This document shows, piece by piece, positions 27,127 to 38,340 of a DNA stretch of 52,836 bases; position 1 is the stretch's first letter; each line of letters begins with the position of its first letter. The translations under genes and the position numbers were made by a program. Source of the stretch: Bdellovibrionales bacterium (lineage in GTDB: Bacteria > Bdellovibrionota > Bdellovibrionia > Bdellovibrionales > JAGQZY01); assembly GCA_020435205.1 (NCBI GenBank), contig JAGQZY010000001.1, forward strand, positions 1 to 52,836, written 5' to 3'. The notes under the pieces were generated by a model that saw only the letters and a program-made list of their open reading frames with translations, did no database searches and had not been told where the DNA came from.

Positions 27127-27215
27127 AATTTAAGCGAGAGATTAAATCCCCGAAAAAAGTGTCTTAAATTGAGAATTTGTTAAAGGTCTTGGTCCTTTGT
27201 TCCGAAAAAAGGATT

Positions 27216-30200
27216 ATGAGGTTCGTTGGTTTTCTTTTCCTAATTTCGATCTTGTTACCCCATGATTTATGGGCAGCCTGTGGTGCGAATACTAGGACCT
27301 GGCAAGCGAACGCGGGAACTACAAACTGGAACACGAATAACAATTGGACTCCAGCCAATAGACCCAACACGGCAACTGAAAATGCAGTGATTGTTTCTGA
27401 CTGGACAGTACCTGCTTATCCAGGAAACAACTACACCCTCGGTTGTGTGGAAATTCAATCGGGGTCCCTGACGGTAACCAACAACAATATTCTCACTATT
27501 GGTGGCGATTACTTTCGCAATATTAATCCAGGTTCTTTAACCGTCGGTGGCGCCAACACTTGGGAAGTGGTGATGGCAGGAACGGCGGATCAAACTTTTG
27601 AGAACGTGGATTTGATACCACGACTTCGTATTAACAATGCCAATACAGTTACCTTAACTCATCCCTTTTCTATTCGAAATCGTTTCCTCGTCGATGCAGG
27701 GTCAGGTTTTGTCATCATCGAGGGTGATCTGGAAACCCAACAAACCGGAGCCTTCACTATTGAGTCGGGTGTGGAATTCACACTTGCCTCAGGGGTGACC
27801 TGGACTCTGAATGGGAACTTGGTTATCGACGGAACCTTGCACATGGAGTCTGGTTCCAAATTAAATATGGCCAACGGAACATCGCTGACGGTAAGTGCGA
27901 GCGGAACCCTTGATATTAACGGAACAGCAGGTAATGCCGTAACAATAATGGCCGAAGACTCGAGCTCAAACATTAGCTTTACGGTAGCGGGCCTTCTCGA
28001 TGCTCAGTACTTGGTACTAAACTACCTAGATGCCACGGGTGTCGCTATGAATGGTTCCATCTCTCGCTTTGACAATGTAAGCATCAATGCCATCGAGTCT
28101 GGTGGGGCTGCAATGACCATTGGTGCGGCTGCAAGCTTGACCTCCGGGATGGATAACGTGGGATTTTATGGCGACAGTGGTGGAGGCCCTTTCACCAATG
28201 TGAACGCTTCAGCCTATAGTGGAAGTTCTGTTAGCTTTAGCAACTGGTCGGGATTAGGGGACACAGCGAACGAGAATGACCCCAACACAGTAATCAATTG
28301 GGGCACCGAAGCGACCCCGGTGTTACAGGTTCAAAACGTCTCGGGTGCGGGTGTGCCTCCAGCGAGTATTGCAAAAGGGGCCGCCCTGACTCAGTTTGCC
28401 ACTTTTGCTTTTTCAATGTCTGGAACAGCAGCGACAGCAACGAATGTGACCAGTCTGACTTTGACCCTTGATGGTAGCAACCTCAATTCCGATGTTGCCA
28501 ATATCGCTGTTTATGAAGACACCAATGCTAATTGCAGCTATGACGGTGGAACCGATACCCTTATCGGCAATTATACTCCAACCGGGTCCCCTGGTACGAT
28601 CACCGTGAATATGTCAGGTGAGATCAATGTGATAGATACCACCCAAGATTGTTTACATGTGGCTATAGCCACTTCCGCGAATGCTACAACCGGCAACACC
28701 ATCGGGGTGAGCATTGAATCGACGGACGATATTAGCAATGATCAAAGCTATGGAATATCTGATACTACGGGTCCACCGGTGAATCCTGGGGTTGCTCCCA
28801 TTACGGGTACAGCAGTTTCCCGTTGGAATGGGGGATATTCTAACAACATGTTCACCACCGGTAATTGGACTCCTAATACTGTCCCAACAAATGCCATTGA
28901 TTGTGAAATTGGCACAGGCTACCAGCCACCTCGCATGACTGCGGCTTTTAACTGTTTGAATACCAAGTTCCAAAGTACTGGATCGATCAATTGGAACAAT
29001 ACAACCAATGCCTTCAATATTTATGGTGCTTGGGTCATCGAAAATGGATTTGTTTTTTCGAACTCAAATAATGCTATTGTCAATTTGGTCGGGAGCACGG
29101 ATCAATCGGTATTTATGGGATCATCCACTTTCCCTAACGATGTTACTGTCAATAGTAGCGGAACAGTGACCTTTGAAGATACGGGTGTTATCAGTGGCAA
29201 CCTCACTTTAAGTGGAGGCGGCATCACCATCGCTTCGGGTGCGAGTCTTCAGGTCACAGGGAATGTTTCAGTGGCTAGTGGCACCACCCTTGATATTGAG
29301 CCCGGTGGCGAACTGGTTATGGGCAATGGCTCTACAATTACCGTAAACAGCGGCGGAACTTTTGAAATTGTGGGTTCGGTCGCACAGTCGGCAGGTGTCC
29401 GTGCCGTTAATGATTCTAGTAGTTACACGGTCACTATTAACAATGGTGCCACCATCAGTGCTCGTTATTATTCATTCAGAAATTTAGGGTTAACAGGCTT
29501 AACTGTGAACGCTACAGCCACCATCGATGGTTCTAACTTTTTACAAAACGGAACCTTTATTTATCCTGGCGTAGCAAGTGCTAACATGCTTAGACTTTTC
29601 CAAGAAATTCCTGGCGACGTATTAGATGGGATGTCTTTTGAATCAGATGGTTCTGGTGCAGGCAGTGTCATAAGTATATACACCAGCACGGGAGCGACTT
29701 CCGACACCTTAAGTTTAACTAACTTTGCTGGCGATCTTACGGGGGCAACCTACACCAATGATAATAATTATCTCGTAGTGTGGGGGACTCCAACTAATGA
29801 ATTAAAACTCACTCAGGAGGCCACAGCGCCCGCTTCATCTGCGCAGGGGGATGTGGTGAACATGGGCCGCTTTGGCTTTCAACAGCTCAATGCCGGTTCG
29901 TTTAATGATACAGATATTGACTACATCCGCATCACTCTGACCGGGACAGGGTCCTCTTCTGATGTGGACTCTGTCATGCTTTATTATGATGCCTCTTGTT
30001 CCGGCAGTGGTGGAACACTTTTGGGAACAAAATCTTTTTCAGGGAATCCCGCTCGTGCTGAGTTCACGAGCCTTAGTGGCGTCACGGTTGAGGCCGATGT
30101 AGCGACACCTCCTCTAAGATGTGTTTATGTCGTTTTTAACCTGAATGCTTTGGCAACAAATGGGAAAACGGTTGGTGCAGAGATCACCTCCAGTCTTCAT

Positions 30201-33200
30201 GTGACTAACAGCGAAGCTTTTGATTTTAACGCTAGCTTTGCGCCACCGGTGAACTTGGGCACGACATCTATTGTTGGGTCTACCACCCAGTGGACCGGAG
30301 CCACGAGCACAAATTGGTTTACTGCGGGCAATTGGAGTGGTGGCGTTCCCACATCGGGTTTGAACTGTATTATTAATGAGGTTGCCAATGACCCTGTGAT
30401 TGGCTCCGGGACAGCCGTCTGCAAATCGGTTTCCATTGGTAATGGAAATTTAACAATCAGTGGGGGTAGCTTAGAAGTCTATGGTTCTCTAGAAAGCACA
30501 GGCACCATAACAGCATCTGCACCCATTGTGATCCGAGACGATGGGGCCACTCCAACCTCGCAAAATATTGATGTGACATCTTCTTTAAGTGAAATTCAAT
30601 TTAACAAAACGGCAGGCGGTGCCGTTAACATTAATAGTGATTTGAATTTGACGAATCAGCTGGTCATGGATGGATCGCAAGATTTTACTCTTACGGTCAC
30701 AGGCAATAACGCATTAATTTTAAATGCTGGACTCAGTCTTTCTGGTGGTGTGTTTGACATGGAAGGCGCCAGTGAATTGCAACTGGCCAGCGGTCAAAGT
30801 GTATCGGTCACGGGTGGAACATTTAGAACCAGCGGGACCAATGATGCCTTTCCACAAACACTAACAAACAAAGCACATATTACCAATACCGGGGGCAGCA
30901 GCACTTGGAGCTTTTCTGCGAGTTCAGGAACTGTGGATCTCACTGGATTTTATATCGATTGGTTAGACACGAGCGGACTGAATCTCACAGGAACGGTCAC
31001 CTTAAGTCATCTTGATGGTGGGCAATTAAGAAACCTACCCACCACGGCGGGGATGACAGCTTTACAGATCAATACTTCTGGCTCCATTCCAGCAACTTCT
31101 AGTAACTTTGGGTGGAATTGGGGGCCGACGAACAGTCCACCTTCAGAGGCGACCGCTTACTTTTTGGGGGCATCCACAGGCTGTGGTTCGCAGACGATTG
31201 ATTTTGACCAATGGTTCGGAGATTTTTGGCCTTTCACTACTGCCACCACTGCTGATAAGATTTCAACAAGTGGTTGTACCATCCTTATTGATCGGGCTAA
31301 GTCACCAGTGTCGCTCACTCAGTTGGAGGCGGAGCCGTTTGACTCTAAAGTTGTGATTCGTTGGACCACCGGCAATGAGTGGGATCATCGCGGTTTTAAT
31401 GTCTATCGTAGCTTGAAACCAGAAGATTCCTATGTGCAAATTAACAATGAGCTCATTCGCAATGATCTATTCTCCACCAATATTCATGGGACCTATGCTT
31501 TTGTGGATGAGGGTGTAATCAATGGTCAAACTTACTACTATATGCTCGAAGATGTGTCCCTCATGGGCGAGAGTACTTTGCATGGTCCATTGAGTGCCCT
31601 GCCAGCAGCCGGCTTGGGTGATCCGCCAGCGATCACGGCTGGGACGATTGCCTCAAGCTCCGATCAAAATGGGGCGGGTGATAGTGACTCATCAGGTGGT
31701 GATACAGTTGAAATTTCTGAAAATGTTTGGGTGTTAGCGCAAACAGACAGTTACTTACGTCTTAAGATCGTGATACCAGCCCTGAGCCTAACCGCAGATC
31801 CACTCAATGGATCTTACAGCCAGCTTAGTATTAATGGATACTCTCGATATAGTGAAGCTGGAGCCCCTCAGTTATTAAGCAAGACTCTTTTTATACCTAT
31901 TGATGGAAATTCGTCGTCAGCGACCTTTGAGTTAGTTGATGCGCAAACTCAGGTTGCGGCAGGCGTAAAGGTGAGTCCAGCTCCACGTTACGTGGCTTCA
32001 GGTGACAGCATGGTTCCTCAGTGGGAACTCAATTCAACGATCTATTCCACAGCACAATCTATGCCGGATCAATTTATCGAGCTGGCCAATATTGTTGTCA
32101 ATCAAGGTCAATCCTATTTGCCCATAGTTGTGAACCCCGTTCGTTACAATCCAGTGAGTCTTGATTTAACAAAGGCCAATGAATTGGTTTTAGATGTCTT
32201 TTTAGAGGGCGCGCCCGCATGGCAAAATCCTCAGGTATCCGTTTCGCCGTGGATGCGTGAAGGCAGTATTAAAATAGGGTGGAGCAAAGAAGGAATGTAT
32301 AGTGTGAGCTTTGATGAGCTTTACGAGGCTGGGGTCGTTGCGCCTGTGGCAGGTAAAGACATTTCACATCTACACTTGCGCGTGGCTTCTGTTGACCTTG
32401 GCATTTCTGTAGACTCAGCAGACAGTGTCTTTAATTCTGGAGACAGCATTCTCTTCTATGCTCCTTATCTCAAAACGGATGAAGATAGCTTAACTTACGG
32501 AGCTCTTTACTTTGATGACAGCCTATCGTCATCGTTGGCAAGCCAGGCGGATGCCTCTGTCGGTGTGTTGCCAGCGACGACGTCGTCGGGCTTTACTGCA
32601 AAAAACCATTATGAACAGAATAATCTCGCTGTATTTAATGAGCCCTACACTGAGCAAACCGATCATTTTGTTTGGTCATTGATTTATGGTGTGTCGGGGG
32701 GTGCCCGCACAGGTTTGAGTTTTGATGTCCAGCTTCCGCATTTGCAAACCTCTGGCGAGGTGGTCCTTCGGGCGACAGTGAAAGGAAGAGTGGCCAACAG
32801 CGTTAACACCCACCACAACCTTGAGATATATGTCAATGACAGTGCCTCAGCGGTGGCTCAGGCTTCATTCTATGCCGTCGAGCCACAGTCACTTGTCTTT
32901 AAGATTCCCGTCGAGCGTTTTGCTTCTGGTTTGAACAAGGTCGAACTGCAGGCTACGGGTAACAATTTGCCAGCTGGCGAATATGATATGTTGTATGTGG
33001 ACGATGTTGAAATTTTCTATCCACAACAATGGGCTGTTGATGGTGATCAGGCTTTGATACTGGATCAACAACAAGGCTTCTCCTATTCTCTCGACGGATT
33101 TACCCAGCCTTCCATTAAGCTCTATGATGTGTCGTCGCCATCAGCATTAGTTGAGTATGTCAATTTTGCAACAGCAGCGACTTCCAATGGTTTTGCTGTC

Positions 33201-34592
33201 GACTACGGAGTTCCGGCCTCAGTTGGAGGGCGTCGTTTATGGGTTGGTACAACGAACCAGTTTCATTCAGCGAGCTCGTTTAAATTGATCGAAGGAAGCC
33301 GCTGGAGTGATTCTAATCATCAAGCTGATGTTGTTTATATTGGGCATAAAGATCTTCTCAAAAGTGTTAAAGCACTTGGAGATTTACGAGAATCTCAAGG
33401 TTATAAGGTTGAGTACATCAATCTGGAGTCCTTGTACGATGAGTTTGGAAATGGCTTACACAATGTGCAAGCGGTGAAAGACTTTGTGGACGCGAGTCAA
33501 AACTGGCAATTGCCACCACGCTACTATGTTCTTCTTGGGGATGGAACTTATGATCCAAAAGGTTTTCAAAACGATATCATTAAGTATCGTTTCCCAATTA
33601 AGTACATGAGTGGTGTCAGCTTTGATTACGCTAGTGACCATTGGTTTGTGGCCAATGAGCAAGGCATCCCTCAGGCCGTGGTGGCGCGGATTCCAGCTCA
33701 CTCTTTAGCTCAAATGGAAATTTATGTTCAAAAAGTTTTAGATTATGAAAGCGGCGCCAGGAAGCCTGGGGCATTGGCGGCAATGACGTTTGTTTCTGAC
33801 AAACCCCAGTACACTGGCGAGGACTTTGAAACCCCCATTGGTGATATCCAGAGCTTGAGTGAGGTTTCTAAAATTACAAATGTGAAAGAGCAAATCAAAC
33901 GGTCAGAACTTTCCGACGCAGAAATGAAGTCAGCCCTTGTCGATGCTTTCGCCAATAGCAGTGTTGTTCATTATATGGGGCACGGTGCTGAAAATATGTG
34001 GGGTGGGTCTAGTGTTTTTGAAAACGCCGATGCAAGTGCTCTAACGAATAGCAAGCTCCCCATTGTGGTAGCGATGAGCTGTTTAAATGCACAGTACACT
34101 GATCCAGACTTAACGAGTTTTTCTGAAGAGCTCTTGTTCAACCCGCAAGGCGGGGCTATAGCCTTTTGGGGCTCGACAACATTTACACCGCCGTCGATTC
34201 AGGATATTTATCAACAGTCCTTTTACCGAAATTTAGCTCAATCGGCAGAACAAGATTTGGGTGAGATTGTGAAAATGTCAAAAGTGGAAGCTGGCTTGAG
34301 CAGTCCTCATGATGAGGTTCTTTACTCTTGGTCAATCATTGGAGATCCGCTTCTAAAGCCAGCTATTCAAATTCAATCCTCGAACGCTTCGACTTCTCCC
34401 GTCAACGCCTCGCCCTCTTCTGGTACAAGTCCACAAGGAGGAGGTTGCTCGGCCATAGCCTCCTCCCAAGGGGGAGCAGGCCAAGGAACGCCATGGGCAC
34501 TTGTCATCTCCTTTATCTTTGAAGTGTTGATGGTTTTACTGGTGATGAAGTTGTCAAAAGTCCTAGCACGACACAGTCTTAAAAAAGATTAA
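27216..34592 (+). CDS. Giant secreted C25 (gingipain-type) cysteine protease with sorting-like C-terminus
   Basis: 2458 residues. Start ATG 27216 (AAAGGA upstream) is preferred over TTG 27177; it gives a signal peptide cut near residue 20. Three beta-rich modules of about 490-500 residues follow, each opening with a W-x-N/G-x-N-W pattern (NNNWTP at about 46, TGNWTP at about 547, AGNWSG at about 1035) and filled with Gly/Ser/Thr/Asn right-handed-helix-like repeats. A fibronectin-type domain (GFNVYRS) lies near 1360-1465. The C25 catalytic domain is near 2035-2390, with His 2256 in YMGHG and Cys 2289 in AMSCLN, the expected catalytic pair. The last 48 residues are Cys 2411 after a Gly triplet, a hydrophobic helix and a basic tail (ARHSLKKD), which resembles an envelope sorting signal. 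It probably acts at the cell surface or after release; the substrate is unknown. Confidence 0.85.
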   Translation: MRFVGFLFLISILLPHDLWAACGANTRTWQANAGTTNWNTNNNWTPANRPNTATENAVIVSDWTVPAYPGNNYTLGCVEIQSGSLTVTNNNILTIGGDYFRNINPGSLTVGGANTWEVVMAGTADQTFENVDLIPRLRINNANTVTLTHPFSIRNRFLVDAGSGFVIIEGDLETQQTGAFTIESGVEFTLASGVTWTLNGNLVIDGTLHMESGSKLNMANGTSLTVSASGTLDINGTAGNAVTIMAEDSSSNISFTVAGLLDAQYLVLNYLDATGVAMNGSISRFDNVSINAIESGGAAMTIGAAASLTSGMDNVGFYGDSGGGPFTNVNASAYSGSSVSFSNWSGLGDTANENDPNTVINWGTEATPVLQVQNVSGAGVPPASIAKGAALTQFATFAFSMSGTAATATNVTSLTLTLDGSNLNSDVANIAVYEDTNANCSYDGGTDTLIGNYTPTGSPGTITVNMSGEINVIDTTQDCLHVAIATSANATTGNTIGVSIESTDDISNDQSYGISDTTGPPVNPGVAPITGTAVSRWNGGYSNNMFTTGNWTPNTVPTNAIDCEIGTGYQPPRMTAAFNCLNTKFQSTGSINWNNTTNAFNIYGAWVIENGFVFSNSNNAIVNLVGSTDQSVFMGSSTFPNDVTVNSSGTVTFEDTGVISGNLTLSGGGITIASGASLQVTGNVSVASGTTLDIEPGGELVMGNGSTITVNSGGTFEIVGSVAQSAGVRAVNDSSSYTVTINNGATISARYYSFRNLGLTGLTVNATATIDGSNFLQNGTFIYPGVASANMLRLFQEIPGDVLDGMSFESDGSGAGSVISIYTSTGATSDTLSLTNFAGDLTGATYTNDNNYLVVWGTPTNELKLTQEATAPASSAQGDVVNMGRFGFQQLNAGSFNDTDIDYIRITLTGTGSSSDVDSVMLYYDASCSGSGGTLLGTKSFSGNPARAEFTSLSGVTVEADVATPPLRCVYVVFNLNALATNGKTVGAEITSSLHVTNSEAFDFNASFAPPVNLGTTSIVGSTTQWTGATSTNWFTAGNWSGGVPTSGLNCIINEVANDPVIGSGTAVCKSVSIGNGNLTISGGSLEVYGSLESTGTITASAPIVIRDDGATPTSQNIDVTSSLSEIQFNKTAGGAVNINSDLNLTNQLVMDGSQDFTLTVTGNNALILNAGLSLSGGVFDMEGASELQLASGQSVSVTGGTFRTSGTNDAFPQTLTNKAHITNTGGSSTWSFSASSGTVDLTGFYIDWLDTSGLNLTGTVTLSHLDGGQLRNLPTTAGMTALQINTSGSIPATSSNFGWNWGPTNSPPSEATAYFLGASTGCGSQTIDFDQWFGDFWPFTTATTADKISTSGCTILIDRAKSPVSLTQLEAEPFDSKVVIRWTTGNEWDHRGFNVYRSLKPEDSYVQINNELIRNDLFSTNIHGTYAFVDEGVINGQTYYYMLEDVSLMGESTLHGPLSALPAAGLGDPPAITAGTIASSSDQNGAGDSDSSGGDTVEISENVWVLAQTDSYLRLKIVIPALSLTADPLNGSYSQLSINGYSRYSEAGAPQLLSKTLFIPIDGNSSSATFELVDAQTQVAAGVKVSPAPRYVASGDSMVPQWELNSTIYSTAQSMPDQFIELANIVVNQGQSYLPIVVNPVRYNPVSLDLTKANELVLDVFLEGAPAWQNPQVSVSPWMREGSIKIGWSKEGMYSVSFDELYEAGVVAPVAGKDISHLHLRVASVDLGISVDSADSVFNSGDSILFYAPYLKTDEDSLTYGALYFDDSLSSSLASQADASVGVLPATTSSGFTAKNHYEQNNLAVFNEPYTEQTDHFVWSLIYGVSGGARTGLSFDVQLPHLQTSGEVVLRATVKGRVANSVNTHHNLEIYVNDSASAVAQASFYAVEPQSLVFKIPVERFASGLNKVELQATGNNLPAGEYDMLYVDDVEIFYPQQWAVDGDQALILDQQQGFSYSLDGFTQPSIKLYDVSSPSALVEYVNFATAATSNGFAVDYGVPASVGGRRLWVGTTNQFHSASSFKLIEGSRWSDSNHQADVVYIGHKDLLKSVKALGDLRESQGYKVEYINLESLYDEFGNGLHNVQAVKDFVDASQNWQLPPRYYVLLGDGTYDPKGFQNDIIKYRFPIKYMSGVSFDYASDHWFVANEQGIPQAVVARIPAHSLAQMEIYVQKVLDYESGARKPGALAAMTFVSDKPQYTGEDFETPIGDIQSLSEVSKITNVKEQIKRSELSDAEMKSALVDAFANSSVVHYMGHGAENMWGGSSVFENADASALTNSKLPIVVAMSCLNAQYTDPDLTSFSEELLFNPQGGAIAFWGSTTFTPPSIQDIYQQSFYRNLAQSAEQDLGEIVKMSKVEAGLSSPHDEVLYSWSIIGDPLLKPAIQIQSSNASTSPVNASPSSGTSPQGGGCSAIASSQGGAGQGTPWALVISFIFEVLMVLLVMKLSKVLARHSLKKD

Positions 34593-34674: not shown

Positions 34675-34845
34675 GTGAAAGAATCAAAAAAAGAAAAGAA
34701 AAAGAAAAAAACCTATACTCAGCCTAAGTTAAGAAAAGAAAAAGTCATGGCCTTTGGTGCTCTTTGTAATGGTTCAGCGACGGGTGGAAGAAAATCTACG
34801 GCAGGGTCACCAGATTTCTGTCAGGCCAATAAGCTTTTGTCTTAA
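34675..34845 (+). CDS. Putative RiPP precursor peptide (56 residues)
   Basis: Short ORF read from GTG 34675, with AGAGG seven bases upstream, to TAA 34843-34845; its stop is 10 bases before the next gene. The N-terminal part is a very Lys/Glu-rich leader (residues 2-12) followed by YTQPKL (14-19), matching the YxxPxL motif that PqqD-type recognition elements bind in lasso and related leaders. The C-terminal half changes character: FGALCNGSATGG (27-38), then RKSTAGSPDFCQ (39-50) and NKLLS, with two Cys (31 and 49) and many Gly/Ser/Thr, as expected of a modified core. No signal peptide or hydrophobic segment is present. Its place directly before an RRE protein and a radical SAM/SPASM enzyme is the main support. 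The leader/core boundary and the final product are unknown. Confidence 0.72.
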   Translation: MKESKKEKKKKKTYTQPKLRKEKVMAFGALCNGSATGGRKSTAGSPDFCQANKLLS

Positions 34846-34854
34846 TGGAATTTG

Positions 34855-35736
34855 ATGTTAGATTTAATTCCCCAAAATCGGCAAGAGTTGATACCAAATT
34901 GGCCGACTTATTTTAATCGAAAGCTCAACCATGAGCACAATGTCTCTATTCATGGGGTATCGATACAATTTAGAGTGTCTGAGGCAAAGCTCACCGAAGA
35001 ACTAAAAAACTTCTTTCCAAAAACATGGCAAAGAGTTCAGGGCTCACCAATCGTTATCGACTGGGTTTCCCCAAAAAATGGGGCCGATTGGGACAATGTC
35101 ATTGATCCCAATTGCATTTTTGCTGAGGACTATGTTTCGCAAAGGGATTTCCTGACTCGCCAGGTAAGTAAAAGCCACTATCAGCTCATGGCACCCTACA
35201 AAATTGATGACGGTTTTTTTAATTTTTTAAGATTTTTAATTCCTGGTGAACTTTTAAATGAAGGAAAGATATTGTTTCATAGCTCCTGTGTTGTGAATAA
35301 GCAAGGCGAGGCTTTTGTTTTTTTTGGGCCGTCAGGAGCTGGGAAAACAACCATTGCTCAACTTTGCCAATCCGCTGGCGGCAATATTTTGGGTGACGAC
35401 ATGAACTTAATTTATGTTCAGCAAGGCAAGCTTTTTGTAGAGGCAGCAACTGTTGGACAAAGATTTTTTTCCATTAATAATTTCGGGAAAAGATACCCGG
35501 TAAAGAAACTTTTTTGGATTAAAAAATCTTCTCATTTTTCAGTGGATTTTTCTGTTGAAAATACTTTATCAATTTATTTATCAAGCTTTGCAAATTTATT
35601 TTGGAATGGGCTTGGTGAGGAAGGATATCAGCAAGTTTTTCGGATTCTTCAAGAATTTCGTAAGGCTAAAGCTGTAAATGTTTTGAATTTTGCAAAAGAA
35701 GAAAGGGTGTGGGGTTATGTCCAAGGCATTAAATAG
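34855..35736 (+). CDS. HPr-kinase-like P-loop protein of the RiPP locus
   Basis: 293 residues from ATG 34855. A Walker A motif GPSGAGKTT (residues 158-166) followed by GGNILGDDMNLIY (Walker B-like acidic pair) gives the HPr serine kinase / PEP-carboxykinase-like fold. It is not the classical HprK: the N-terminal HprK domain is absent and no HPr gene is nearby. Kinases of this type occur in some lasso-peptide clusters, where they phosphorylate the peptide, so a tailoring role on the precursor or product is plausible. The gene is clearly AT-rich. It overlaps the PqqD-like gene by 20 bases. Confidence 0.75.
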   Translation: MLDLIPQNRQELIPNWPTYFNRKLNHEHNVSIHGVSIQFRVSEAKLTEELKNFFPKTWQRVQGSPIVIDWVSPKNGADWDNVIDPNCIFAEDYVSQRDFLTRQVSKSHYQLMAPYKIDDGFFNFLRFLIPGELLNEGKILFHSSCVVNKQGEAFVFFGPSGAGKTTIAQLCQSAGGNILGDDMNLIYVQQGKLFVEAATVGQRFFSINNFGKRYPVKKLFWIKKSSHFSVDFSVENTLSIYLSSFANLFWNGLGEEGYQQVFRILQEFRKAKAVNVLNFAKEERVWGYVQGIK

Positions 35737-35995
35737 AGTTTTTAAGCGCAATCGCAATTTTCCATGGCAAACTTTGGATTCCGAAACGGTCATTATAGAT
35801 CCAGAAAATCAATTTTCCTTTGAGCTTAACGAAGTGGGATCGTTGATTTGGAATCATCTTGATGGGCAAACGTCGCTTTCAAAGATAAAGGAACGGATTC
35901 TTGAAACCTATGACCAAAATGAGGAAGAAGTTGAGATGGATCTGCTCTCCCTGGTGGGTCAATTGGCGGAAAGTCATTTGATTCAGATGGTTTAA
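35717..35995 (+). CDS. PqqD-family RiPP recognition element
   Basis: 92 residues from ATG 35717; an upstream in-frame start at 35690 is possible. The order of a winged-helix PqqD fold is visible: two short beta strands (ETVIIDPENQFSFELN), the conserved NEVGSLIWNHLDGQ helix, then KIKERILETYD and a last helix LVGQLAESHLIQ. Such proteins bind the leader peptide and hand it to the modifying enzyme. It overlaps the kinase gene by 20 bases and ends one base before the radical SAM start, so these genes are surely co-expressed. Confidence 0.85.
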   Translation: MSKALNRVFKRNRNFPWQTLDSETVIIDPENQFSFELNEVGSLIWNHLDGQTSLSKIKERILETYDQNEEEVEMDLLSLVGQLAESHLIQMV

Positions 35996-35996
35996 T

Positions 35997-37049
35997 ATGA
36001 ATAAAGATCTATTTGAGAAAGTTCGAAAGAAATCAGTAGAACAAGCCATCCCTTTGCAAGCCTCTTTGGAACTCACTTATCGTTGCAATGAAAGATGCAC
36101 ACATTGCTATATAGAAAAATTTCAAGATGATCCAGCAAGAATTCTCGAACTTGATGACTGGAAAAAAATACTCAAGGAACTGCGAAGCGCAGGGACTCTT
36201 TATCTTGTTCTCATGGGTGGAGAACCCACCTTAAGTTCCCACTTTTTTAGCATTTTAAACTATGGTTCGGATCTTGGATTCTATATGTCTATCATTAGTA
36301 ATGGCTTGAAGATTCAAGATATTGAATATGCGCGAAAGTTGAAAGAGGGTGGACTGAGGTTGGCTACTTTTAGCCTATATAGCTTGGACCCATTAATCCA
36401 CGATAAAATGACTTCTGTAAAAGGTTCTCATGCAAAGTTGATGAAAGCGATCTTTCTTTGCCGTGATGCTGGGATCAAAGTGTCGCTGAATGGCCTCCTC
36501 ACCGAAGCCAATGCTAAAGGTATTTTTGATCTCTACGAGTGGGCGGATACAGAGGGCTTAGAGCTCAAAGTAGACCCCAACGTCACTGCAAAACTGAACG
36601 GAGATATGCAGCCCACACTTTACAGAGCCTCAAGAGAGACTCTGACTTGGTTCTACCGTGAACGAGCAAAAAGATGGGAAAACGCTTTGCCAACACCTGT
36701 TGTTGAGCCCAGTAATGCTTATGTGTGTAATGCTGCTAAAGGAAAGTGCGCCGTTAATCCCTACGGTGAGCTTCTGCCTTGTATTGAAATCAGAGAGGCT
36801 TTTGGTAGCTTGGTAGAAAAGTCCTTTGCAGAGTTATGGGCTTCAGACAAAGCTATCAAGTGGCGGGAGCCAAAGATCAAAGACCTTTCTCTTGGTGAGC
36901 ATCAAGCGATTTACGGTTTTTGCGACCACTGCCCAGGCATGGCAAAAAATGAGCATGGCAAACCAATGCAGCTCACTGACTACACTAAAGTAGTCGCTGA
37001 AGTAAAAAGCCAAGTTTTTCGCGAATTTCAAAGGGAATCCGATCTGTGA
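35997..37049 (+). CDS. Radical SAM/SPASM peptide-modifying enzyme
   Basis: 350 residues. The radical SAM cluster motif CNERCTHC (Cys 30, 34, 37) starts the barrel, followed by the SAM-binding MGGEPTLSS (GGE motif) and SIISNGLK. The C-terminal SPASM domain has C244-x6-C251, the NPYGELLPC segment (Cys 262) and the terminal CDHC pair (309 and 312), for one or two auxiliary [4Fe-4S] clusters. Enzymes of this architecture make C-C, thioether or C-O crosslinks or epimers in RiPPs; which reaction occurs here cannot be told. It probably acts on the peptide encoded at 34675 with help from the upstream PqqD protein. Its TGA overlaps the GTG of the next gene. Confidence 0.9.
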   Translation: MNKDLFEKVRKKSVEQAIPLQASLELTYRCNERCTHCYIEKFQDDPARILELDDWKKILKELRSAGTLYLVLMGGEPTLSSHFFSILNYGSDLGFYMSIISNGLKIQDIEYARKLKEGGLRLATFSLYSLDPLIHDKMTSVKGSHAKLMKAIFLCRDAGIKVSLNGLLTEANAKGIFDLYEWADTEGLELKVDPNVTAKLNGDMQPTLYRASRETLTWFYRERAKRWENALPTPVVEPSNAYVCNAAKGKCAVNPYGELLPCIEIREAFGSLVEKSFAELWASDKAIKWREPKIKDLSLGEHQAIYGFCDHCPGMAKNEHGKPMQLTDYTKVVAEVKSQVFREFQRESDL

Positions 37050-37444
37050 GGCAGTTTGAAATTAAGATCCATGGCAATAGTATGTATCCCATTTTAAAAA
37101 ATCATGATCTCCTTGGGGTGGAATCCTTTGACAAGCCTGAGGAGATTGACAAATTTGCAGTGGGCGAAGTTGTCCTTATCAGGGACCGCAGAGAGTGGGT
37201 CGTTCATCGAGTGGTTGATTTTGGGGTCAAAGCCACTATGGGAGATTGGTCTCTCTGCATAGATGCCCCCACAAAGATTTGGGGTCGAGTCCTCACAGTC
37301 AACGGAGTGCCAGACCCTCTCTTGCGGGATAAAAAGGTGAGTTTGATTTCTCAAATTATTTCTGGGCAACCTATGGTTTTTCGCAAGTTTTTTAGAGTAG
37401 TGCTCCTCCTCTATGTTTTTCTTAAAAGGCGAGGGTGTTGCTGA
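37046..37444 (+). CDS. S24/S26-like protease, Ser/His type
   Basis: 132 residues from GTG 37046, which overlaps the radical SAM stop (GTGA). It shows the S26 fold: nucleophile Ser 12 in HGNSMYP, GEVVLIRD, then VVHRVV with His 54 and TMGDWS. A His at this place rather than Lys is typical of the SipW/archaeal (S26B) branch. There is no N-terminal membrane anchor; instead a C-terminal hydrophobic stretch (RVVLLLYVF) followed by KRRGCC may tether it. Removal of the RiPP leader is the obvious role from context but is an inference. Its stop overlaps the next ATG. Confidence 0.8.
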   Translation: MRQFEIKIHGNSMYPILKNHDLLGVESFDKPEEIDKFAVGEVVLIRDRREWVVHRVVDFGVKATMGDWSLCIDAPTKIWGRVLTVNGVPDPLLRDKKVSLISQIISGQPMVFRKFFRVVLLLYVFLKRRGCC

Positions 37445-38340
37445 TGATCCTTCATCCCATGAGTCAATGGAATCCGGATCAGATAGCCGCCCACCATCTC
37501 AAGGGCCTGGCTTTTGCCGAACTGAAAAGAAGTGAGTTCAAAGAAGATTGGCAAGTTACAAGCTTTAGAAACCATCATATGAAAAAAGAGTTAGAGGCTC
37601 TCGGCCCACAGTTCTCACAAAAAAATCTGCAGGTTGTGTTGCTCAAAGGTTTTGCCTTACTTGGTGATATATACCCGGACTGGGGGAGCCGCTTTACTTC
37701 CGATGTGGATATTCTTGTGGACTCCTTCCAACTCAAGGAAGTCACCAAGATTTTGGCAAGAAATGGTTTTAACAAACAAGAAGAAAAAACTTGGATGGGC
37801 AATCAATTTAAGAGCCTCTTTATTAAGAAGACAGAACAGTGGGAGATCTCTATCGAAGTTCATAGCCGATTGTTCTGGCACCGTCAAAAGTTAGGGCATC
37901 AGCTGAAGCCTTCGACGCAAATTTCAAATTATTATATTTTATCTGATGAGGATATGCTTTTGCATCTAGCTGGCCACTATGCTTTTCAGCACAACTTCCT
38001 TAAGCTTTTCTGGCTTGTCGATATACAACGGTTTCTTGAAAGACGATCAAATACCTTGAACTGGTCTATTTTTTGGAAAAAAGCTCAGTTTTTTCATTTG
38101 CAAGAGAGTTGTAAAATTGTCCTTTTTCTTTGTGGGGAACAAGGGGGCAAATGTGCTCCAGGCTTATCTTGGCGGCAAAAAATGCTTCGGAGATTGGTGA
38201 CTCAATCATTTCTTATGGCTCCAAGGTCTCAGCCTTGGAGATATCATTTGATAAAAGTCCTTGTTAAAGACTCTATTTTTGACAGTCTTCGTTATACCCT
38301 CCTGTGGTTTTTTTCCTACAAGCTTTCCCTCTTTAAATAG
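37444..38340 (+). CDS. NTP_transf_5-type nucleotidyltransferase
   Basis: 298 residues from ATG 37444, overlapping the protease stop (ATGA); a GTG at 37435 is also in frame. The catalytic segment is KGFALLGDIYPDWGSRF (about 68-84) then TSDVDILVD with the metal-binding Asp pair 87/89. Proteins of this family are frequent in kinase-bearing lasso clusters and in other RiPP loci, where they are thought to transfer nucleotidyl groups, but the acceptor is rarely known. Late part is rich in aromatic and basic residues. Last gene of the tight core. Confidence 0.78.
   Translation: MILHPMSQWNPDQIAAHHLKGLAFAELKRSEFKEDWQVTSFRNHHMKKELEALGPQFSQKNLQVVLLKGFALLGDIYPDWGSRFTSDVDILVDSFQLKEVTKILARNGFNKQEEKTWMGNQFKSLFIKKTEQWEISIEVHSRLFWHRQKLGHQLKPSTQISNYYILSDEDMLLHLAGHYAFQHNFLKLFWLVDIQRFLERRSNTLNWSIFWKKAQFFHLQESCKIVLFLCGEQGGKCAPGLSWRQKMLRRLVTQSFLMAPRSQPWRYHLIKVLVKDSIFDSLRYTLLWFFSYKLSLFK

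Follow-up and report, generated by a model that had tools for sequence, protein, structure and literature searches.

Two described groups of ribosomally synthesized and post-translationally modified peptides (RiPPs) stand closest to the locus considered here. In kinase-bearing lasso peptide systems such as those of paeninodin and pseudomycoidin (PadeK, ThcoK, PsmK, PsmN), the kinases carry a set of His-Lys-Asp-Asp residues, and the C-terminal Ser receives phosphate through PadeK and hexoses through PsmN (review PMC9266682). Linear polyphosphorylated peptides (LPPs), described in 2026 with the gene set lppA-K-B-S-D-N of Paenibacillus alginolyticus, are said to be restricted to Bacillota (PMC13381572). 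We analysed a stretch of 52,836 nucleotides (the window; contig JAGQZY010000001.1 of assembly GCA_020435205.1) from a Bdellovibrionota genome of 2.83 Mb (here G000, the contig being C79), in which six + strand genes, with overlaps or gaps of a few bases, encode a short precursor peptide, an HPr-kinase-like protein, a PqqD-type RiPP recognition element (RRE), a radical S-adenosylmethionine (SAM)/SPASM enzyme, an S26-like protease and an NTP_transf_5 protein (34675-38340). The locus represents a radical-SAM variant of an LPP-like enzyme set in another phylum. An earlier sequence-only reading had proposed these six genes and their domain assignments, all of which held up in the searches reported below; the extent that it gave to the locus was right for the six genes, and it missed a likely further member, a giant C25 peptidase gene directly upstream.

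The precursor family and its enzymes

The short open reading frame (ORF) at the head of the locus belongs to a real conserved family and is not a chance ORF. With the 56-aa window ORF as query, tblastn detected the same peptide next to the closest homologous radical SAM genes (52-66% identity), and a profile built from nine sequences detected the precursor in 34 of 369 Bdellovibrionota genomes, with E-values down to 5e-28. Beyond this phylum, searches covered plasmids, in which the precursor was not found, and one six-pattern scan of genome contigs. In the alignment of 35 copies from 35 loci, the consensus of which reads YxxPxIxSExLxxFGAxC followed by a conserved C-terminal part with GGRK, residues Y14, P17, C31, G37, K40 and C49 are invariant, and E22, G33, R39, L54 and S56 are kept in at least 90% of the copies. 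All 34 complete precursors end in a hydroxyl residue (Ser in 32, Thr in two), the single one ending in Ala being cut by a contig end. Type I signal peptidases need small residues at positions -3 and -1, and in 30 of the 35 precursors such residues (A/S/T/V and G/A/S, respectively) precede a bond two residues before the Cys; its counterpart in the window is G28/A29, with the box A26-F27-G28, and the five precursors devoid of the small residues are the most divergent ones. A poly-Gly insert immediately ahead of the first Cys is also present in the two precursors ending in Thr (L094, 7754-7933; L095, 267-494), which offer a natural test of the residue preference of the kinase.

The kinase gene adjoins that of the precursor at 32 of the 35 loci, the remaining three showing, respectively, a 10-kb insertion of a giant C25 gene, a split over two contigs and a contig edge. 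A radical SAM gene is present at almost all loci for which the contig suffices, a PqqD gene wherever the contig is long enough, and the S26 and NTP_transf_5 genes at most loci. Since gene order and strand vary between genomes, the genes evidently stay together despite rearrangement. Thus, a short ORF containing YxxPx[LIV] and two Cys is a regular part of homologous loci, as the sequence-only reading had anticipated, and a conserved short precursor with leader and core, along with an RRE, marks the system as a probable RiPP locus. One weak extra match to the precursor, at locus L124 (G672, contig C56, 3100-7696), was set aside as a different cassette, in which three radical SAM genes accompany PqqD-like and kinase-like genes and the gene of a precursor of 63 aa that contains YxxPxI and C..GGNRK..C; this cassette is distantly like both the window family and the SynChlorMet cassettes discussed below.

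The radical SAM enzyme retains the three Cys of the CX3CX2C motif (C30, C34, C37) and SPASM residues C244, C262 and C309, all invariant in 29 sequences. Its nearest solved relatives are peptide maturases, as expected if its substrate is a peptide: by sequence profile SkfB (best, E=1e-33), followed by PqqE and SuiB, and by fold search with a model of mean predicted local distance difference test (pLDDT) 95, SkfB (best, 4e-15), SuiB, PqqE, CteB and anSME. The radical SAM proteins of the family fall into two clades, each with full support and a long branch, one of which is the window type; the corresponding profile reaches 16 genomes at E<1e-50, with G075 and G175 being weak matches from the other clade. 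When clade labels are placed on the kinase tree, about four changes are required, at least two of which are forced by supported branches. The radical SAM gene has thus been exchanged at loci that retained precursor and kinase, a pattern suggestive of identical or equivalent roles for the two enzyme types. Relatives on plasmids of Thiodictyon, Photobacterium and Macrococcoides were rejected, the two examined belonging to other systems (25-27% identity). At locus L016 (G251, contig C296, 21-1037), the third Cys of the CX3CX2C motif is missing from the enzyme (RCTHYN), and its gene contains an in-frame TGA, reflecting either decay or an assembly error.

Sequence matches of the kinase are weak (PEPCK_ATP, 1.2e-6; HprK_rel_A/B, about 3e-5). 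Its assignment to the HprK/phosphoenolpyruvate carboxykinase (PEPCK) superfamily nonetheless stands, because the best PDB matches of the AlphaFold2 model (pLDDT 92) are PEP carboxykinases and the HPr kinase/phosphatase 1knx, and H142, the P-loop residue K164 and D182 are invariant in 31 homologues. The protease matches archaeal-type signal peptidase I most closely, the S24 match being weaker, and its profile matches SEC11A/C (1e-8); residues S12, H54 and D67 are invariant in 25 homologues and correspond to the set S29/H68/D93 of the LPP protease LppS (PMC13381572). In the NTP_transf_5 protein, K68, D87 and D89 are invariant in 24 homologues.

Proposed pathway and comparison with described systems

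By analogy with PadeK and PsmN (PMC9266682) and with LppK, LppS and LppB (PMC13381572), we infer that the locus quite probably makes a RiPP through Cys modification, phosphorylation of the C-terminal Ser, nucleotide or hexose addition and leader removal. The RRE would bind the leader motif YTQPKL and present the precursor to the other enzymes. The SkfB-like enzyme would then modify the conserved core, most probably by forming at least one thioether (sactionine-type) bond with C31 and/or C49, an assignment drawn from its SkfB-like structure and the invariance of the Cys; a disulfide or another radical modification may exist instead. The kinase would put at least one phosphate on Ser56, as PadeK does in paeninodin, and the NTP_transf_5 protein, acting like PsmN of pseudomycoidin, would attach a nucleotide or hexose to the resulting phosphoserine. 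Removal of the leader would fall to the S26-like Ser-His protease, whose likeliest cut, at the G28/A29 bond, would yield a core of 28 residues. Export would probably proceed via an ATP-binding cassette (ABC) transporter encoded elsewhere in the genome (contig C80), and the product would probably act at the cell surface jointly with the giant C25 protease, whose gene lies immediately upstream. While the sequences themselves establish which genes are present, how they are conserved and co-occur, and the folds and catalytic residues of the products, the chemistry of each step, the order of the steps, the cut site and the function are proposals. Every step is directly testable, given that the cut box, both Cys and the C-terminal Ser are conserved.

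Genes for ABC transporter ATPases occur at 20 precursor loci, and the host genome contains an ABC permease homologue (45% identity, E=1e-69). On contig C80 of that genome (L143, 933-2986), a gene for an S26-like protease lies with those for an ABC ATPase and an ABC-2 permease, and on contig C149 (L139, 2744-4392) a methyltransferase gene adjoins a second NTP_transf_5 gene. Together they form a second, scattered set that resembles parts of locus L021 and could provide the window pathway with its transporter.

Several observations weigh against the proposed pathway. Only D182 is invariant in the kinase, the Asp-Asp pair not being strictly kept, and the phosphorylation site could differ from the C-terminal Ser, since the LPP kinase acts on core Ser3 and not on the C-terminus (PMC13381572). 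Furthermore, the S26 or the NTP gene was not detected at some loci (L085, L088, L090), two radical SAM clades serve one precursor family, and the radical SAM enzyme matches no curated NCBIfam family, so that the bond may be of another type.

With LPPs, the window type shares (i) the HprK-like kinase, the discrete RRE, the archaeal-type signal peptidase I-like protease, the NTP transferase and a YxxP leader, (ii) the lack of a macrolactam cyclase, and (iii) a location often among polysaccharide genes and sometimes two RREs. It differs in its regular radical SAM/SPASM enzyme, in a conserved core with two Cys and GGRK, in a conserved C-terminal hydroxyl residue, in its Bdellovibrionota host and in the co-occurring giant C25 protease. 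The LPP leader consensus YxxPxVLxHQxIxFETxxS and its variable C-terminus are not found, only YxxPx[LIV] being common to both; no conserved Ser lies near the predicted start of the window core, the C-terminal Ser being conserved instead; and whereas the LPP core cluster includes an MsbA-like transporter, none lies beside the six window genes, a separate ABC ATPase/ABC-2 permease pair being present at many loci and on contig C80. The locus resembles the paeninodin and pseudomycoidin systems in an HprK-like kinase with His-Lys-Asp type residues, a C-terminal Ser, an NTP-transferase gene, an RRE and a YxxPxL leader (PMC9266682). However, neither the genes of the window nor the neighbours that recur include an asparagine-synthetase cyclase or a B2 protease; the loci carry the radical SAM enzyme and the S26-like protease instead, and the core lacks a conserved Asp/Glu ring acceptor. 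The view of the sequence-only reading that the pathway is distinct from lasso peptides is borne out accordingly. Sactipeptide-type maturases (SkfB, SuiB, CteB) are the nearest solved proteins by profile and fold and likewise pair with a conserved core containing Cys, but the window RRE is separate rather than fused, and no curated sacti- or ranthipeptide family is reached.

As to novelty, the claim of the sequence-only reading stands only in part: what is new is the radical SAM enzyme together with a conserved core containing two Cys, whereas the cyclase-free set of kinase, RRE, signal peptidase-like protease and NTP transferase has a precedent in LPPs (PMC13381572). A RiPP combining radical SAM and HprK was not found in the literature searched, and the one paper in which HPr kinase, radical SAM and precursor peptide all occur mentions the kinase for lasso clusters only. 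The pathway would thus join radical SAM modification to HprK-type phosphorylation of a terminal Ser, and the locus extends an LPP-like enzyme set beyond Bacillota.

The giant C25 protease and alternative readings

The gene ending 83 bp upstream of the precursor encodes, on the same strand, a protein of 2,471 aa, or about 2,460 aa from the likelier start, ATG 27216. It has an N-terminal signal peptide and a C-terminal tail composed of GGGCSA, a hydrophobic stretch and RK. While the C25 domain itself is clearly recognized and a PorU-like region is present, as in the type IX sortase PorU and the gingipains, the score falls below the PorU cut-off (NF033707; 180 versus 420 bits), and the giants, of about 2,000-3,500 aa, have a different tail. 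They share the signal peptide, the C25 domain and, in most, a start with ACG..W..NW. All complete ones (the window protein, with its tail at 34400-34592, and those at L068, L069, L075 and L131-L138) end in a GGGC[SG]-like, hydrophobic and basic tail. Judged from sequence, this tail looks like an undescribed cell-surface sorting signal, and that of the window protein matches no NCBIfam model.

Clustering of neighbour proteins places relatives of the giant at 18 of the 35 precursor loci. In nine cases the gene lies immediately upstream in the same orientation, either 6-83 bp away or with a short overlap. A phylum-wide search found some C25 domain in 97 genomes; giants, taken as C25 open frames of at least 1,900 aa, occur in 29, that is, in 27 of the 34 genomes with the precursor and two of the 335 without it (Fisher p=3e-32, uncorrected for kinship). 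The co-occurrence repeats in several families, also with the genes on different contigs, and the one genome of the same genus, G001, is devoid of both. Five of the seven precursor genomes without a detected giant are fragmented assemblies, and in one of the two giant-only genomes (G101) the contig with the enzyme set begins within the kinase gene, so that the precursor may be lost to the contig end only. This link between the giant C25 protease and the peptide is new, and the near one-to-one presence of a giant gingipain-like protease provides a lead on the surface role of such phosphopeptides.

The same pattern bears on a serious, if unlikely, alternative, namely that the precursor is no free natural product but a secreted partner (inhibitor, maturation cofactor or substrate) of the giant, with the Arg-Lys between the two Cys as contact site; the chemistry proposed above is compatible with it. 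Arg and Lys are the residues after which gingipain-type C25 enzymes cleave, and besides the co-occurrence, the invariance of K40 and near-invariance of R39 speak for such a partnership. Against it, G048 and G133 have the peptide module and no C25 match, and G038 has a giant C25 without the precursor. We conjecture that a C25 enzyme specific for Arg/Lys recognizes the invariant Lys, together with the Arg before it, within the two-Cys loop. One may even speculate, doubtful as this is, that a radical-SAM-modified, C-terminally phosphorylated and glycosylated peptide serves as dedicated partner of the giant cell-surface protease, which would cut the two-Cys loop or be inhibited or activated by it, the whole forming one previously unknown surface system of Bdellovibrionota.

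It appears improbable that the locus simply makes an LPP, to which the radical SAM enzyme is a minor or dispensable addition. The same four core enzyme families, the lack of cyclase and B2 protease, the polysaccharide genes around several loci and the two RREs at some, as in LPPs (PMC13381572), would agree with this. Yet the radical SAM gene is all but constant where contigs suffice, the core with its two Cys is conserved here, in contrast to the high variability described for LPP cores, and LPPs are reported only from Bacillota with phosphorylation at core Ser3, in a paper in which radical SAM has no occurrence (PMC13381572). Membership in a SynChlorMet-type (Scm) or GeoRSP radical-SAM cassette is highly improbable: these pair PqqD-type with radical SAM proteins, Scm adding a kinase-like ScmC to ScmD, ScmE and ScmF, and weak profile matches do exist, but the scores lie far under the cut-offs (kinase to ScmC, 15.6 versus 125 bits; PqqD to ScmD, 33 versus 100; radical SAM to ScmE, 57.8 versus 400, and to GeoRSP, 79.6 versus 400), S26 and NTP_transf_5 proteins are unnamed in the Scm models examined, and the precursor matches no NCBIfam model. 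The curated cut-offs rule out Scm, GeoRSP and HPr-rel-A membership. Finally, it is scarcely credible that the short ORF is incidental and that the enzymes modify a non-peptide substrate. Cofactor-making enzymes (MoaA, NirJ) do fall within the range of the radical SAM fold; the precursor, however, is conserved at loci with contig coverage, at most of which it was found independently of the radical SAM gene, and an RRE and a leader motif are present.

Locus layout and setting

The features are listed below. For the kinase, the start is probably ATG 34855 rather than TTG 34852. Promoter and terminator scans gave no more signals than shuffled sequences.

Features of the peptide locus and its upstream neighbour in the window
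Feature	Position	Strand	Basis
Giant secreted C25 (gingipain/PorU-like) peptidase	27177..34592	+	PF01364 9.5e-59; NF033707 4.8e-53
Precursor peptide, 56 aa, GTG start	34675..34845	+	family of 35 sequences
Precursor leader with YTQPKL motif	about 34675-34758	+	sequence
Predicted core ALCNGSATGGRKSTAGSPDFCQANKLLS	34759-34842	+	small-residue box before G28/A29
HprK/PEPCK-superfamily kinase	34855..35736	+	AlphaFold2 fold search; H142, K164, D182 invariant
PqqD-type RRE	35717..35995	+	PF05402 2.7e-16; conserved across loci
Radical SAM/SPASM peptide maturase, without fused RRE	35997..37049	+	PF04055 5e-24; PF13186 7e-8
S26-like (archaeal/SipW-type Ser-His) protease, predicted leader peptidase	37046..37444	+	TIGR02228 4e-6
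NTP_transf_5 nucleotidyltransferase-family protein, PsmN/LppN-like	37435..38340	+	PF14907 1e-35

Two PqqD-type genes each are present at L071, L072, L075 and L081, and two RREs have likewise been described for LPP clusters located next to lasso clusters (PMC13381572). Surface polysaccharide genes (encoding a glycosyltransferase, a Wzz-like protein and others) surround the peptide locus in L012, L013, L018, L022, L071 and L072; like settings have been reported for paeninodin clusters and for those of LPPs (PMC13381572 for the latter).

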